From Saccoglossus kowalevskii (taxonomy: Eukaryota > Hemichordata > Enteropneusta > Harrimaniidae): a stretch of DNA of 31,361 bases. A model generated the notes under the pieces. The model had not been told where the DNA came from. It worked only from the letters and a program-made list of their open reading frames with translations, and did no database searches. Numbering within the stretch: position 1 is the first letter of the stretch; every line of letters begins with the position of its first letter. The stretch lies in assembly GCF_000003605.2 (NCBI RefSeq), contig NW_003106598.1:182693-214053 (forward strand), in the 5' to 3' direction. This document shows, piece after piece, positions 5,493 through 29,323 of this stretch. Made by a program: the position numbers and the translations under genes.

Positions 5493-6029
5493 TTACATAT
5501 CTTCTAGAAGATACCTTTTCAAGTGGCATTTGAAAGACTGTCTATTTTGTATACTTTTTATGTGATCGGGAAGTGAGTTCCAGTGTTTAGTGGAAGCGTA
5601 TTTGAGAGTATGTTGATTTAATATGAGATTGACTTTGTGAGTATAATAGTTGTCGCCTGCAGCATATCTTGTAGGGTAATTATGGGGTAGTGTGTCTAGA
5701 TATTTGTCAATACTATGGGCATATTGTTTCTTCTATAAGTCAAAAACGAACAAACAGGTGTGTAATATACAGAGCTTATGAATATTTAAAATACCAAGAG
5801 ATTTGAAGAGAGGAGCGGTATGAGAACAAAAGTCAGAAAATGAGATTAGGCGGACAATTTTCTTTTGTAGAAGCGTAATTGGATTTAATAGCGTTGAATA
5901 AGTATTCCCCCAAATCTGTACACAGTAAGTTATGTGTGGTAATATCAAGGAGTTATATAGCAAGAGAAGTAAATATTTAGGAACATAGTGTCAAATTTGT
6001 AAAATGATTCCAACTTTGGGGGCAATTAT
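5493..6029 (-). pseudogene. 3' end of a non-LTR retrotransposon reverse-transcriptase ORF (Jockey/CR1/L2-type), decayed
   Basis: Read on the minus strand, about 179 codons align with the C-terminal end of LINE ORF2: a KVGIIL stretch, then HYVPKYLLLLLYNSLILPH, ITYCVQIWGNTYST, a KKIVRLI helix, HTAPLFKSLGILNIHKL, and after a stop HNYPTRYAAGDNYYTH, KHWNSLP and FKCHLKRYLLEDM ending at a natural TAA (5493-5495). The frame is intact but broken by stops at 5991-5993 (TGA, probably from CGA) and 5733-5735 (TAG). Upstream of about 6030 the frame holds further stops and no LINE similarity, so this is a 5'-truncated dead copy. In the parent element this region follows the reverse-transcriptase palm and thumb. 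Confidence 0.85.
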
Positions 6030-11749: not shown

Positions 11750-12150
11750 ATACCCTCGTTCCCTGCACTTTTAATTGGGATATACGTTGCTACACTCTTG
11801 TGTCTTCTACCGTTGAAAGGAAAATAACTTGTCTATAGCTTGGTTGTAACCTGTACCTTTCAGCGAAAAAGAATGTGCGTATATCTTCGTGTACAACGAA
11901 TTATAGCAGAATGTACGTAAATGTGTACCCTCGTCCCCTGTACCTTCCATTAGAACATAATGTACGTTTTCCCCGTTCCCTGTACATTTCATTAGAACAT
12001 ATTTACGTTTACCCTCATTCCCTGTACATTTCATTAGAACACAATGTACGTATACCCTCGTTCCCTGTACCTTTCATTACAACATATTTACGTTTACCCT
12101 CGTTCCCTGTACCTCTCATTAGAACATATTTACGTTTACCCTCATTCCCT
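11750..12150. repeat. Minisatellite, 42-bp unit
   Basis: From about 11926 to 12150 there are five to six copies of a unit containing TACCCTCGTTCCCTGTACC, TTTCATTAGAACATA and TTTACGTTT, with one 43-bp unit. Diverged outlying pieces occur at 11750-11780 and 11855-11920. Because 42 is a multiple of three, frames stay open on both strands and give repeat-like peptides; nothing suggests translation. Confidence 0.9.
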
Positions 12151-15100
12151 GTGCGTACCATGATCGGAGAATGCTGTATTATCATGTACATTTCAGCCAG
12201 TATCATGACTGACATCTATGAGACACTCTTGGTTGAATGATTATACACCAAATCTGCCATACCATCCAGTATTTGACACTGAATGGTCATATCTCAGTCA
12301 CTTCCTTAGATTATTGCATACTGAAGTGTATTTCATATCTGTCGCCGAAAAGCGTATACTATGTATAATTAGAGACGAATAATGGCCGCCGGAAAAAAAT
12401 ACAGCTGGCAAACATTTTAGAGAATGCGTTCAAAAGGTGGTACACTTTTAACGTTACGGCTTCGGCCTTTACCTGGCACGAATTTAGCCGTATATCTGAC
12501 CTCGCCCGTACTTAAACTCGCAGTGTCGTCTGTGCGCTGTTTAGAAAAGAATTCCACACACTAATCAATTTCACAACGAGACTCGTCGTACGGTATACAT
12601 CTTACACAATTAGCAAAACATTAGTAGAGTAACATTAATTCTGTTTCTCCAAGACCCTGACCCTACATTTATAAGGTGAATTGTGTATTAGATTTTTTTG
12701 TCAATTATAAAGAGCGATGATGCATTATAAGATAATTGTAATCTCCGCTCACGTGCGTGATATCAGTCCCAAAGGCTGCTGGCTGCAACAACGAATCGTT
12801 CAGCCTCGGTCTCGATTCCTCATGAGTAATCGTTCATCACGATAACATCAGTTGTTTTTTTTAAATTCTTGAGTAAATTCATGATGAAATAATATATTAC
12901 GTCTTTCAAACTGTTTTAGTTACCTTGATTACCTTGTTCTTTTCAGCGTTACAATCCAGTAGACTTAGATTTTTGGCGCCAAAATGTAACACAGACTGGA
13001 ATGACTGAGCTCTGATCAAATGTATCAGTAATTCTCTGTCACATTGGTTTTTGGTCATGAATTTGAACTAGAGTGCAATAGCTTCAAAATATGCAGTTTC
13101 AAAGTAAAAATTGGTTAAAAAGTAGAAAACAATTTCAAATGTGTTCCCACTTGGATTTTCTAGACTGTCTAGATTGGATGACTCACATTATTTGATCATT
13201 CGGACAACCTTTACCGACTGAGGTCACAGACTCGTTTTTTGTCGCATCTCGTTCATTTCTCCGTTTTCTCCCAAGTGCAGTTATCATTACTATGTAAAAA
13301 AAAATAACGGAAAGAATCTGTTTTGGTTCAAAGTATGATATGTTACACTTTGTGATACATTATGCGGTTACTATAGGAACTACAACGAGTGGCCCTTGGT
13401 TTACATGGCAACCATGTGCAAAACAGCAATGTTCATCCTGTGAACTATTAGCCACGAGTTTGAGAATTCCTGACTTACACCTAAATGTAAAACTCCAAAG
13501 CATACATGTACATAGCTATATCACTATTTTACTTTTGTCTTTTGCTTATGGGTAATCTCAGACTAGAAGCCTGAGGTATAATTCAACGTGTACCACGTGA
13601 CATTTAAATTACCATTCTAATACTGAAGCCGGAATAGCTTAGGCGCCAGGTGCTTCATGCACTGTCGTTGGTTCGACTAAAAGCCAGCCAAGTCATACCT
13701 TTATTTGGCCATGTTTTTGAACTTCAATCCAACTCCATGCATTTTGGGGAAAGAGAAAAATCCGGGACTCGGCCGCCAATGGTCTTGGACTCCTCGTGTG
13801 CCAATTGTCCTGGGACTCGGACGCTAGCGACATTTACATACATTGGCTGGAGAGATGTATAACACGTGGGTGTTCATATACAATAGTAAAATAGTTTGAA
13901 CGCTCTGTATGGCAGAAGAAGAAACGTCACATAAGATCATCGAATTCATTTTACTCACGGGGTACACACATGTGTGGGTGGTAACAGCTGTCACAATGTA
14001 ATGTTTCAGTCGAATCGTGTAATCGGCTTAATACTAGTTGATACTTTTGATAGATTTATATAGATATGAAATAATAATGTTTCGATAAAAATCGATTTCG
14101 ATAAAATCATGATATTTTGTGGTTCTTAATGTACTGTGGTGTTATGATCAATGCGGGTCAAAGTTCACGTTGATATTAACACAAATACTCCAGAAATGTG
14201 GTCTTTCAAAAAATTTTCAAATGAAATATCAAATGTACTCAGGACTTTGCAAGGAAAGTTAAAGTATTAATTTTAATTTAAACAAATTGAATAAGTCGTA
14301 AGTTTCACAGAAACTGCATATATTGGTGAAATTACAATCCTTAGTTCACGAACTATCACGAGTCAGTAATTCGACCAATCAGTAATATAGTTGCGTGCGC
14401 TCACTGTGCTCACTGTCGATGTCGCCGATCCCGAACCGCTGCTACGCTCATCCACTTTCCCATGCTTAATTCTATGTTTTTATTGCTGGTGTTGTTGCAA
14501 ATATGATAAACGTCGTGCCTATAAGTGGCGCCCTCGGCGACAGAGCGTTTCTGTGACGTAAATTGGATATAATGGACGCTGCTCACAGCGTCGTCGATAT
14601 TGGGTTGATCTGTGGTCGCCCGTAATTAGAAAATAGTATTTTTTCAGATTTTACAGATTTTAAATGACATCGACTTCATGCGTGACAACAAGAGTTAGCC
14701 ATTTGAATTCATTGCATACATTCAGCTACGTCATTTTGTTGTCACATAAACGTTTCTACGTATGTATGCCACCAGTATCCATCTATCATTTTATCGACTA
14801 GTGGTTTGAACGATATACATGACATTATAAACCAATCATTTTGTAAACAGCGGACTTGTACGCCTCTAAATATTCGCCGTTATGAATTCGTGGTTGAGAT
14901 ACTAACATAAATGGGAGTCAGAGAGCATAAAACTAATTAGTATTAGTCGTGTAATCTGCATAATTTATCCTCAATTTGCGAAATAAAAACAAATCGACTA
15001 CACTATCGTTGTCTACATTATTATTGTATCACCACTGATTACAATGGTGACGTGGAAATTAACTAAACTTAGAAACTTACAACATACCCTCATCTGATGG

Positions 15101-23530: not shown

Positions 23531-23626
23531 GCGAAAATCATACCAAAGGGATGTATAAATTTTTATATAACCGTATGAGGGCGTAAGACAACCACATCGC
23601 CTTGATCGTGTACCTCCTGGGTGCCA

Positions 23627-25402
23627 ATGGGTAAATTTCAACACAAAGGACGAAGTTCCAGGAGAAAGATGTCGCGCCTTTTCAAGATCATGCTATTTCT
23701 GATCGCATTGGCTATTTTTATACTTATCAGCAATTTGGCCTTGTTATCAAACCCGTCATTCGTCTACCATACAACGCCCTCACTCGATGATGGCGATGAG
23801 ATGCATTCCTTCATGAGGGCGAGGAAACTGGAATCTGTTAAAGTGAACGCGGCAGACAACCCTGGGCTATTACACTTTGAAGAAGTTCGAACAGCAGTAT
23901 TCAAGCAAAACGTGGTGCAGACCTTCGGGGAAATGTGGACAGCGCCATCTCGAGGCAGTATTACGAGAATGTCGAATGGATATATTCACAGGAATGGACT
24001 AGTGTTATCAAATATGGAAGAATCTGTTTTAAACAATACAACGGTGTTGTCACGCGCAGCTATTTTATCATTTCTTCACATACAGCAGGATACTTTTGAA
24101 GACATAGTGTTTGGTTTATTACCATTTTTAAACTTTACGTGCGAATTTATGCAAACTACGGACCCTTTACAAATTTTGATGAAAACTCAATTACCCGCCG
24201 ACGTCATTGAGTATTTCTGCCACGTGAACAGTTCTCGTGTAATTTACGATATCCCGGATGTCACGTACTTTGCGAGCACTGTTTATCTTCCGGCATTCTT
24301 CCCGAACAACTTACTCCATCAGCAAGGGCTGATCCCACCGAATTCTCTACGCAAACTGAAAAGAACAGTTTTCAATGACGGTGACATCGTACTGTACCTT
24401 AGAGAGTCAGATCACACGTCTATACTTCTTGAAAACGAAAACGAGATTTTATCGGTCTTAGAAGCCTCGTTGCCCGACACACTGGGATTAGTTGTCTGGA
24501 AGTCGTCTGAACATGACTGGCGGGGAAACCAGCACACTTTCTCTCAAGCCAGAATTGTGTTGGCTCCTCGCAGTACTGCCGTTGCCAATGTCGCTTTCTG
24601 TCACCCTCAAAGTCACGTGATTGAAATAACCCACCGAAATTTTAGTTGCCATGGAAATAATTCTCTTAGGTGCTATGATGGTCTGGCGAAGGCGTTTGGT
24701 TTGAATTACTGGACTCTTTTTGCTGAAAGGACCACGCCGCAAGATGACAAGATCGCGCGTGTATCGCGAGAAAGTCTACTGCAGTTGCTGAGTGTCATTC
24801 TGGACGAGACGGACTACGACGTGTCCCAGAAGAAGAGTGATATTTTGCAAAGAATGTTCCAGGAAAGCATGCCGCTTGGACTTCGACAGATGTCGTCTAT
24901 TCTAGAAGACATTTTTTACAGGTCCGGTAGTTGTAAATTGCTAGTTTTCGGGTTTGCCAATGACATTGAATTGCTTAGCACCGCAAACCAAAATGGTGCC
25001 ACGACTCTTGTAGTCGCCGGAAACGACACGTCGCGAATGATTACAATGGCGCCCAAAGACGTAACTTACATTTCTGGGGAATACTCAGTTTCGAAGTCAG
25101 AATGGAAAACGCTAATTAACAACAAACCTGAACTTTTGCAAGAGAACTTTCCTAAGGAGTTGAAGTCCACGGTATGGGACATAATCATAATTCGTTCGAT
25201 TAACTCAGACTCGTATTTGTCGGATACCATAAAACCAATATACTGGGCTTCACAGATTGCTGGTATGGGTTCTTCTGTGTATATCCACGCAGTTCATAAC
25301 ACCATAGAATCGTCTGTAGCGTTCAAATTTTTTGGTGATTCTAGTTTGTTGATCGAAGAAGCCAACACTGCCATGGCTAAGTATGAGACCTCCCGGCTGT
25401 AA
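23627..25402 (+). CDS. GT61-like glycosyltransferase fused to a DUF579 (IRX15/GXM)-like domain, type II membrane protein
   Basis: Seen: 591 codons without an intron. The in-frame stop TGA lies at 23603-23605 and the first ATG at 23627 (G at +4); an ATG at 23669 is an alternative start. Residues 1-17 are basic, about 19-41 form one hydrophobic segment, and the rest is hydrophilic with about seven N-glycosylation sequons, so a Golgi/ER type II topology is inferred. Residues about 100-375 resemble the GT61 (DUF563) fold: NGYIHRNG at 117-124, DGDIVLYLRESD at 251-262, ENENEILSVLE at 269-279, then SQARIVLAPRSTAVAN and a VIEITHR strand near 331. GT61 enzymes transfer sugars such as xylose, arabinose or GlcNAc. 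Residues about 417-575 resemble plant DUF579 glucuronoxylan methyltransferases: KLLVFGFAND at 437-446, VWDIIIIRS at 516-524, YIHAVHNTIES near 552-562. Expected catalytic landmarks are altered in both domains (see findings), so activity is uncertain. The protein may act in glycan synthesis; substrate unknown. Confidence 0.85.
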   Translation: MGKFQHKGRSSRRKMSRLFKIMLFLIALAIFILISNLALLSNPSFVYHTTPSLDDGDEMHSFMRARKLESVKVNAADNPGLLHFEEVRTAVFKQNVVQTFGEMWTAPSRGSITRMSNGYIHRNGLVLSNMEESVLNNTTVLSRAAILSFLHIQQDTFEDIVFGLLPFLNFTCEFMQTTDPLQILMKTQLPADVIEYFCHVNSSRVIYDIPDVTYFASTVYLPAFFPNNLLHQQGLIPPNSLRKLKRTVFNDGDIVLYLRESDHTSILLENENEILSVLEASLPDTLGLVVWKSSEHDWRGNQHTFSQARIVLAPRSTAVANVAFCHPQSHVIEITHRNFSCHGNNSLRCYDGLAKAFGLNYWTLFAERTTPQDDKIARVSRESLLQLLSVILDETDYDVSQKKSDILQRMFQESMPLGLRQMSSILEDIFYRSGSCKLLVFGFANDIELLSTANQNGATTLVVAGNDTSRMITMAPKDVTYISGEYSVSKSEWKTLINNKPELLQENFPKELKSTVWDIIIIRSINSDSYLSDTIKPIYWASQIAGMGSSVYIHAVHNTIESSVAFKFFGDSSLLIEEANTAMAKYETSRL

Positions 25403-25454: not shown

Positions 25455-25460
25455 ATTAAA
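25455..25460 (+). terminator. Poly(A) signal ATTAAA, proximal
   Basis: ATTAAA lies 53 bases after the stop codon of the GT61-like gene. It is a common variant signal, and a T-rich and GT-containing stretch follows. It would give a very short 3' UTR. Confidence 0.35.
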
Positions 25461-26964: not shown

Positions 26965-27103
26965 ACTGTAAAATACTTTATTTTAATTGGTTGAAATTAA
27001 TTTTCGCGGAATTGAGTTATTTTCACTGAATTTTGATAAGTAGAATGTAAAATATTGGAAAAAAATGTCATATCCATTCAGTGAAAATAACGTACTTCAC
27101 AGT
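26965..27103. mobile_element. MITE with nested inverted repeats, 139 bp
   Basis: Outer arms ACTGTAAAATACTTTATTTT (26965-26984) and the complement of 27084-27103 (ACTGTGAAGTACGTTATTTT) match at 17 of 20 positions. Inside, TTATTTTCACTGAA (27017-27030) and TTCAGTGAAAATAA (27077-27090) are a perfect 14-bp inverted repeat that overlaps the right outer arm. ACTGTAAA...TTATTTT...TTCGCGG words resemble MITEs seen in many marine invertebrates (recollection, unverified). Confidence 0.65.
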
Positions 27104-29323
27104 ATTCAAAAGTACTGTTTTCTGATAGTTGTCGGCTTTTTTTTCACCGTGATGCTTGTCAGGCGGTGAAAATGCCCGGATGTCCGTCGCCGGGATGGGT
27201 GACGGTAATGTCGTTCATATCAACCACTGTGTTAGGTTGGGTAGCCGTTCGTCATCTAAAATATAGTAAAATCTCTTCAAAAACGTTAGTCTTCACTGAT
27301 GAACCCGATAGACGACAACAGACCAAAAAGATATCGACGTTTAAAACGCCCTTATCACTGCCTTATGTCACCCGTTTACGTCTTAGAAGCGTTTCGTCAC
27401 TAGATGGTGCAATTTGTAGCGAATTCTGTATATTCAGGGCTCATACCACTAATTGGAACTCCATAGACGACAATGTTAACTTGTAAGAAGATTGCTATAT
27501 GCAAATGAACGAGGTGCATTGACATGTTTAAAACTTTAACTGCAGTGTACCTTTAAAAAATGTTGCATAATTGTTGATTTAGACTCAAGTCGTCAACTTT
27601 TGTGCCAATATTATTTTTTTTTAAATATAAATTGTCTGAAAACATGCAAAATTTTTGTTTTTTAGTTTTTTGAGATATGGCGTAATCTTTTGACTATAAG
27701 AGCCAAATGGAAATAGCTAATTTTTTTATGAGCGAAAAGTAGAATTTAGTGACCTTACTTTTGTATCGTGATTCATCGAGGCACAGAACAAAATAAAGCC
27801 GCATGGTAAAAGTCGAAAACAAATATGGCGGTGAGTTTTAATCGTAACCAATTAATTGTTGTAATACATTACTGTACGAGTTCGATCTTTTCTGGATAAT
27901 GTTTTATGTTGAAATGTAGTTTTCACCCATGCACAATCCATGATGTCATGATGATGATTACTTTAGTAGTCCTAGTAGAAGTAGTGTAGTTTATTAAATA
28001 ACAAATACGAAACAAAATTATACAGACATTATACTGGAAAGTGCTTATACAACTGAAAGGAAAATTTGACAACGACCCGATACAGATACAAAGATGAACT
28101 TGTTTTTCCTCAGTATATGTTCGAGTATACCTTAGTTTTACATTCCTATATAAAACAAAGACAAAAATCTGTTTTCTTGCCTTTTCGTTCAGATTTACGC
28201 CACATATATATAAGTAAGTCTTGAACATAAACCCCCGCTACATCATTGGATAAAAGTGTCAGGATGAGTTCGACGCAGACGGTAACTATCATACACATAA
28301 TAGACTTTACATATCTCATCACCTCCACGACCCCTGACGTTTAAACATGCTATTAAATCTTCAAATCTGAAAAAAATCTGACCCCATTTCAACTGAAAAC
28401 TGTTTACTCGTAGTCGTGGAGCTATGCACACTGCTACGACTCGGCGTGACGGGATCTTGTTACGATGGGTCGCGAAGTGTCAAGTCACAGTCGGGTCGCC
28501 AAATAAATAATTATCGAACCATGATTCTGTAAGACTGTATTTAGAAATGAGCCACCCTACCGCTATTAGCGAGAAATCGCCAATTTTATCATAACACCGG
28601 GGTTGATCGCAATCTATTAATTTTCCCACATCAGTTATATACATGGACTGTCTTGGTCAATTAGTGACCCGAAAGAGTATTGTTCCCGGAATGTGTGGAA
28701 TGCTGAATTATCATTAAGACTTCAAACCATGAATTAAGGCATGGTATGTTTTACGTTAAACTGTTATTAAATATGTGAATGCCGTGATAGCAACTTCCTT
28801 TCGATGTTCACAACAGGTATATATTGCAAAAAGTCTTATGAGATGTATCGAAAGCTCCTTCATGATATTTGATATTGCTGGGAAAATGATTTATTATCAG
28901 TATAGCATGTCAAACAACTTGAATATTCATCACAAGTGTTTAATTATGTGCATTTATATTCCAAATAAACGAATCAAATTATAGGATACGTAATGTGAAA
29001 TATTTTGGATAATGGACAAGTGGAATGCAATCGTTCAGATAGTGTACGAGTGCATTATCCCCCTTACAACACGTAAACCGAACCTGGAGTTTGTACTGGC
29101 CAATCATATTCAACTGATTGTGTTGGTATGAGTTTCAGATTTGTTTTCATAATTCCGACTAGAGATTGATATCCTGATGGTTCAAAATACAATATGGTTG
29201 CATTTGAGTTGTTGGTGTTTCGAATTCGAACACAACAGGGTGGGTACATTTAAAATCTAGTGAATATCTCTACAACATCAAATCCGCCATGTGGACACCA
29301 GTTATTTCATCTTGCATAGTATG
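27104..29323. other. No gene recognised
   Basis: A 106-codon frame at 27166-27486 (+) starts with GTG, first ATG 27172, and has no recognised domain. Minus-strand frames between 27923 and 28431 overlap each other and look random. No repeat was identified. Confidence 0.45.

Follow-up and report, generated by a model that had tools for sequence, protein, structure and literature searches.

Among the described systems closest to this locus are the GT61 glycosyltransferases, of which mammals, according to PMC13123520, possess only two, EOGT and POMGNT2. As described there, an asparagine and two arginines (the N-R-R triad) recognize UDP in EOGT and POMGNT2, and the histidine of an NxxH motif is important for activity; the same source reports that the asparagine is lacking in proteobacterial GT61 proteins. 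DUF579 (IRX15/GXM) was treated as a plant family in the literature found, and its GXM proteins methylate glucuronic acid according to PMC3921138. Among the titles and abstract openings found in the open-licence literature, none described an animal protein combining GT61 and DUF579, an architecture that may be recorded elsewhere.

Gene, frame and domain layout

The window, a stretch of 31,361 nucleotides of Saccoglossus kowalevskii DNA, contains a single open frame (23627..25402; coordinates refer to the window and to its forward strand unless stated otherwise) encoding 591 amino acids followed by a stop codon. ORF analysis of the whole window showed that it is free of stops from position 23606, has its ATG at 23627 and terminates at 25400-25402. 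The stop-free run comprises 598 codons, compared with a longest run of 202 codons in 100 shuffles of the window, and no other frame of at least 150 amino acids occurs anywhere in the window. The G+C content of the gene matches that of the remainder (0.32-0.43). Approx. 100 bases upstream there is a T-rich tract with AG at its end, and polyadenylation-like hexamers follow downstream, the first at 25455, as expected for a gene with its coding part in one exon.

Residues 1-40 (23627..23746) consist of a basic N-terminus followed by a hydrophobic segment and probably act as a type II signal anchor. The best 19-residue window, residues 21-39, has a mean hydropathy of 2.84, in line with the membrane anchor proposed in the initial annotation. 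Seven sequons start at residues 136, 137, 169, 201, 338, 344 and 466, the first two overlapping. The predicted topology suggests that the product probably enters the secretory pathway as a membrane protein of type II.

The frame had been annotated as a GT61-like domain followed by a DUF579-like one, and profile comparison upheld both the identity and the order of the domains. Residues 187-332 (24185..24622) matched the Pfam family Glyco_transf_61 (PF04577) with 28.8 bits; scores of the protein ranged from 28.8 to 31.5 bits against the curated cut-off of 27, and the GT61 half by itself reached 29.9 bits. The DUF579 domain occupies residues 408-586 (24848..25384). Here PF21729 gave 36.9 bits for the whole protein, in two stretches of which 425-499 was the best, and 41.5 bits for the C-terminal half alone (cut-off 27.8). 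TIGR01627 matched residues 418-588 with 40.2 bits, a score well below its own curated NCBIfam cut-off of 149.85.

Models built from microbial relatives agreed with the Pfam results. An HMM of 24 DUF579 relatives scored 70.9 bits on the whole protein, covering model positions 8-186 of 190, and 74.3 bits on the half. The corresponding GT61 HMM, derived from 37 proteins (25 viral and 12 from plasmids), aligned with residues 233-373 and gave 35.7 bits for the whole protein and 37.4 bits for the half. Decoys, i.e. 1000 shuffles per half and both reversed halves, of which 455-824 per model and half gave any score, did not exceed 7.2 bits on either model. In single hhalign comparisons, E-values of 5.8e-10 and 2.3e-13 were obtained for GT61 and DUF579, respectively, while a crossed control of the DUF579 profile with the GT61 half was negative (E=0.66). 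Family members that were left out in turn scored 147.8-252.8 bits (DUF579, n=24) and 86.4-440.8 bits (GT61, n=37). Given its scores relative to the decoys and to the left-out members, the protein genuinely belongs to both families but has diverged very far within each.

Neither the full-length protein nor either half detected a relative among PDB sequences (best E 0.22), and PHROGs likewise yielded none (best E 0.22). Searched against the PDB sequences, a bacterial GT61 profile reached POMGNT2 and EOGT, and the DUF579 profile gave nothing below E=0.076. A joint alignment of both halves was discarded, as GT61 relatives fell on the DUF579 half. The C-terminal motifs highlighted by the initial annotation (LLVFG, WDIII, PIYWA and VYIH...IE) are present and represent mostly fold positions. 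Its designation of this half as plant-type DUF579 stood as far as the family is concerned; the plant label is not shown, since among the microbial sequences compared relatives were found in bacteria and on viral contigs.

Relatives in the same genome and in microbes

A PF21729 profile search of the 572-Mb genome returned only this locus, in a search that scored the best candidates and from which introns can hide genes; none of 14 control genomes gave a match. With PF04577, four places were found: the present gene, a POMGNT2 gene (named by its likeness to POMGNT2 chains in an alignment with PDB sequences), an exon that probably belongs to EOGT, and a weak fourth match (E=1.31). The presence of POMGNT2 and EOGT fits an animal source of the DNA. 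POMGNT2 resembles the GT61-DUF579 gene in that it forms one long frame in this genome and scores similarly on the microbial GT61 HMM (33.6 bits as against 35.7), whereas direct blastp comparison of the two proteins gave no significant match (best E 0.34). The genome's POMGNT2 retains NLMH, two arginines ahead of NE, and HGS, and the putative EOGT exon retains HGAG. The loss of site motifs described below is therefore particular to the GT61-DUF579 gene. POMGNT2 carries a further C-terminal domain. Compared with POMGNT2 and EOGT, the present protein is without the second arginine and GAG, its histidine is unplaced, and DUF579 forms its C-terminus. With plant GXM, AGM and IRX15 proteins it shares a probable membrane anchor, many of the fold positions and membership of PF21729, with a score exceeding the curated threshold; it differs from them in its fusion to GT61, its animal source and the replacement of residues whose invariance was judged on microbial relatives.

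Searching plasmids with the C-terminal half (tblastn) yielded as best match a TIGR01627-annotated protein of Priestia megaterium (E=3e-3); the other 19 matches listed, out of 53 matched records, had E-values of at least 2. Pairwise blastp of the Priestia protein with the C-terminal half gave E=8e-15, and identity to the nearest plasmid relative amounts to 24-27%. A first scan of prokaryote genomes for DUF579 relatives produced 0 loci, and viral scans gave no hits when either the GT61-DUF579 protein or the Priestia protein was used by itself. Relatives gathered from the Priestia protein came from two plus eight loci on viral contigs and 19 loci in prokaryote genomes. The alignment of 24 relatives omits L019, which is near-identical to L018, as well as L010, L012, L013, L014 and L016, which repeat L009, L008 and L007. 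For the viral part of the GT61 HMM, 38 of 63 loci were used, and 25 remained after removal of near-duplicates.

Five microbial DUF579 proteins, among the longest, were scanned for additional domains, leaving aside a 455-aa ORF at L028 and shorter ones. GT2 was found in L030 and L031 and TOD1/MUCI70 in L029, all above cut-off; of the other two, L007 gave GT8 below cut-off and one contained TPR only. The gene at L007:4218-5555 lies on a viral contig; its DUF579 domain is canonical and is fused to an N-terminal part with weak likeness to GT8. The bacterial fusion of DUF579 to TOD1/MUCI70, a family named after plant proteins, is located at L029:2980-4218, and the same pair occurs as adjacent genes at L017. 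Among selected ORFs neighbouring microbial DUF579 genes, 6 of 20 were glycosyltransferase-like (TOD1/MUCI70, Nucleotid_trans, GT29, GT2 and two GT8). The fusions together with these neighbours indicate an association of DUF579 with glycosyltransferases in several microbes. At 25 microbial DUF579 loci, 269 six-frame ORFs (120 amino acids or longer) included no GT61 at E<=0.001, and 38 viral GT61 proteins included no DUF579 at E<=0.01; a microbial fusion of GT61 with DUF579 was therefore not seen in either set. Like the present protein, which adds to such cases, the microbial fusions carry DUF579 on the same chain as a glycosyltransferase; they differ in that other glycosyltransferase families are involved, the DUF579 signature is intact and, in L029, it is the glycosyltransferase that occupies the C-terminal position.

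ORFs of about 540 amino acids next to DUF579 at several microbial loci gave the impression of one recurrent gene. Among nine of them compared with Pfam, no match was obtained for three, and the remainder fell into unrelated families. On the viral contigs L008, L009, L011 and L015, the DUF579 gene lies within a run of same-strand ORFs of like sizes. Among the genes scanned there are, at L008, one resembling GT29 and one for a nucleotide-diphospho-sugar transferase and, at L009, one for a cytidylyltransferase, which suggests viruses carrying surface-glycan genes.

Site residues and probable function

Sixteen alignment columns are invariant in all 24 microbial DUF579 relatives. The protein retains six of them (F441, G442, N454, G457, T459 and E561) and replaces ten, including three acidic residues and two arginines. 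A444 (24956..24958) stands for the second glycine of FGxG, R523 (25193..25195) for the aspartate of VDxP, D533-T534 (25223..25228) for the Gly-Arg of PGRM, and A555 and N558 (25289..25300) for the aspartate of HD and the arginine of RxxE. V463 (25013..25015) replaces the glutamate of TVFxE, likewise found in 24 of 24 relatives, in columns biased by their inclusion in the pattern with which prokaryote relatives were found; VDxP, PGRM, HD and RxxE lie outside those patterns. A tryptophan, the phenylalanine of TVFxE and the proline of VDxP are exchanged for L450, L461 and I525, respectively. Moreover, D446, P509, W517 and D518 are retained at columns conserved in 22-23 of the 24 relatives. The family-invariant set of GXM methyltransferases (FGxG, Glu, VDxP, PGR, HD and RxxE) is thus broken in this protein, although E561 belongs to the residues kept. 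By analogy with methyltransferase folds in general, the replaced residues may be catalytic ones.

In the GT61 half, alignments to relatives point to R259 (24401..24403) as the probable first arginine of the UDP-binding triad; it was in register in one alignment and one residue off in two others. Each triad arginine is present in 36 of 37 GT61 relatives, the second one in 11 of the 12 plasmid proteins. In the present protein no arginine occurs from residue 260 to 298, the next being R299, and hence the second triad arginine is absent. The position of the triad asparagine is ambiguous. Where GT61 proteins have HGAG, alignment with the 37 relatives places RSTA (residues 315-318; 24569..24580). 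Conservation of this motif (H 33, G 37, A 35 and G 36 of 37) is biased by the 25 viral relatives, which were found partly through HGAG. In the 12 plasmid proteins, detected by tblastn and not by the motif, the G, A and G are conserved in 12, 11 and 11 cases, with the histidine less conserved. N270-E271, F324-C325 and E333 are GT61 residues that the alignment shows as retained.

The histidine of NxxH, present in 35 of 37 relatives, falls on different sites of the protein depending on the alignment: NFTC (169-172), with a cysteine, in one and gaps in two others. A global pairwise alignment with the genome's POMGNT2 set N228-LL-H231 on NLMH (E=0.55 for the corresponding blastp piece). The assignment of H231 as this histidine is doubted because only 28 residues separate it from R259, compared with 128 between H166 and R294 of POMGNT2 (numbering of PMC13123520), and because the C-lobe motifs fall out of register in the same alignment. 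D154-E157, suggested as NxxH by a hand alignment beside POMGNT2, was produced by no computed alignment, and no position of NxxH is claimed. The sequence alignments behind the proposed catalytic loss are firm for DUF579 and the GT61 C-lobe and weak for the GT61 N-lobe, where they are unreliable.

On balance we slightly favour the view that the protein is a double pseudoenzyme of the lumen which serves as a scaffold or regulator of glycan assembly in the Golgi or ER. Its lumenal part would comprise a GT61 (GT-B) fold and then a DUF579 fold of methyltransferase-like type, the two having lost their catalytic residues and being retained without chemistry. Within the ER or Golgi, such a protein could bind an acceptor glycan or else a glycosyltransferase partner, e.g. 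POMGNT2, EOGT or a proteoglycan-building enzyme, and act as a regulator or scaffold. Donor binding is possible, as R259 and possibly an asparagine are kept. The coupled transfer and modification of a glycan put forward in the initial annotation is contradicted by the ten replaced DUF579 positions and the loss of the second UDP-binding arginine and GAG; its alternative proposal of a regulator of glycan transfer or modification fits these losses better.

The main rival explanation is that the GT61 half is divergent yet active and that DUF579 alone is dead, serving as an acceptor-binding or dimerising module. We regard this as rather unlikely, although not negligible. R259 can be aligned with the first triad arginine, the N270-E271, F324-C325 and E333 residues are kept, N228 and H231 might form NxxH in the pairwise alignment with POMGNT2, the score is close to that of POMGNT2 itself, and, following PMC13123520, proteobacterial GT61 proteins also miss the asparagine. 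However, a counterpart is lacking both for the second arginine, nearly universal in the relatives including those from plasmids, and for GAG, and the spacing of H231 is wrong.

A young pseudogene in early decay, its frame still unbroken, appears improbable. Both active sites are altered and a second copy was not found in the genome, as such decay would allow, but the 598 open codons far exceed the 202 or fewer in window shuffles, and decay is hard to reconcile with an unbroken frame of this length. Furthermore, many fold positions are kept while likely catalytic ones are lost, a pattern that random decay does not favour. Still less probable is a bifunctional enzyme that transfers a sugar and O-methylates that same sugar. 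The domain pair itself, the bacterial DUF579-GT2 fusions and the methylation of glucuronic acid by GXM proteins (PMC3921138) would suit it; against it stands the change of 10 of 16 invariant DUF579 positions, with three acidic residues and two arginines among them. A contaminating or recently transferred bacterial gene is hardly credible: the nearest relatives of the DUF579 half are bacterial among the microbial collections searched, but the signal-anchor-like N-terminus and sequons, the T-rich tract with AG upstream and polyadenylation-like hexamers downstream, the G+C content shared with the window and the low identity to the nearest plasmid relative all speak against it.

If the protein is indeed a double pseudoenzyme, it may descend from an active fusion of transferase and methyltransferase, comparable to the bacterial combinations of DUF579 with other glycosyltransferase families. 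More tentatively, and with less confidence than in the functional reading itself, an animal lineage could have kept a dedicated double pseudoenzyme, as a glycan-reading or glycosyltransferase-regulating subunit, derived from an ancestor that combined sugar transfer and O-methylation of the sugar in a single chain. If true, this would hint that animal glycan methylation has a branch that was lost or has yet to be seen. A third animal GT61 protein, joined to DUF579 and degenerate at both sites, would bring a pseudoenzyme into animal glycan assembly and would provide a concrete candidate for binding-partner tests.

Elsewhere in the window, a 131-codon open stretch at 27091-27483 (forward strand) has no Pfam match but encodes a hydrophobic segment after an internal ATG; it is possibly the first exon of another membrane protein. 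Two adjacent open stretches on the reverse strand (5493-5990), for which Pfam gives a weak, sub-threshold match to another family, presumably resemble the end of a retrotransposon reverse transcriptase. A tandem repeat with a 42-base unit in 5.4 copies is located at 11926-12152.
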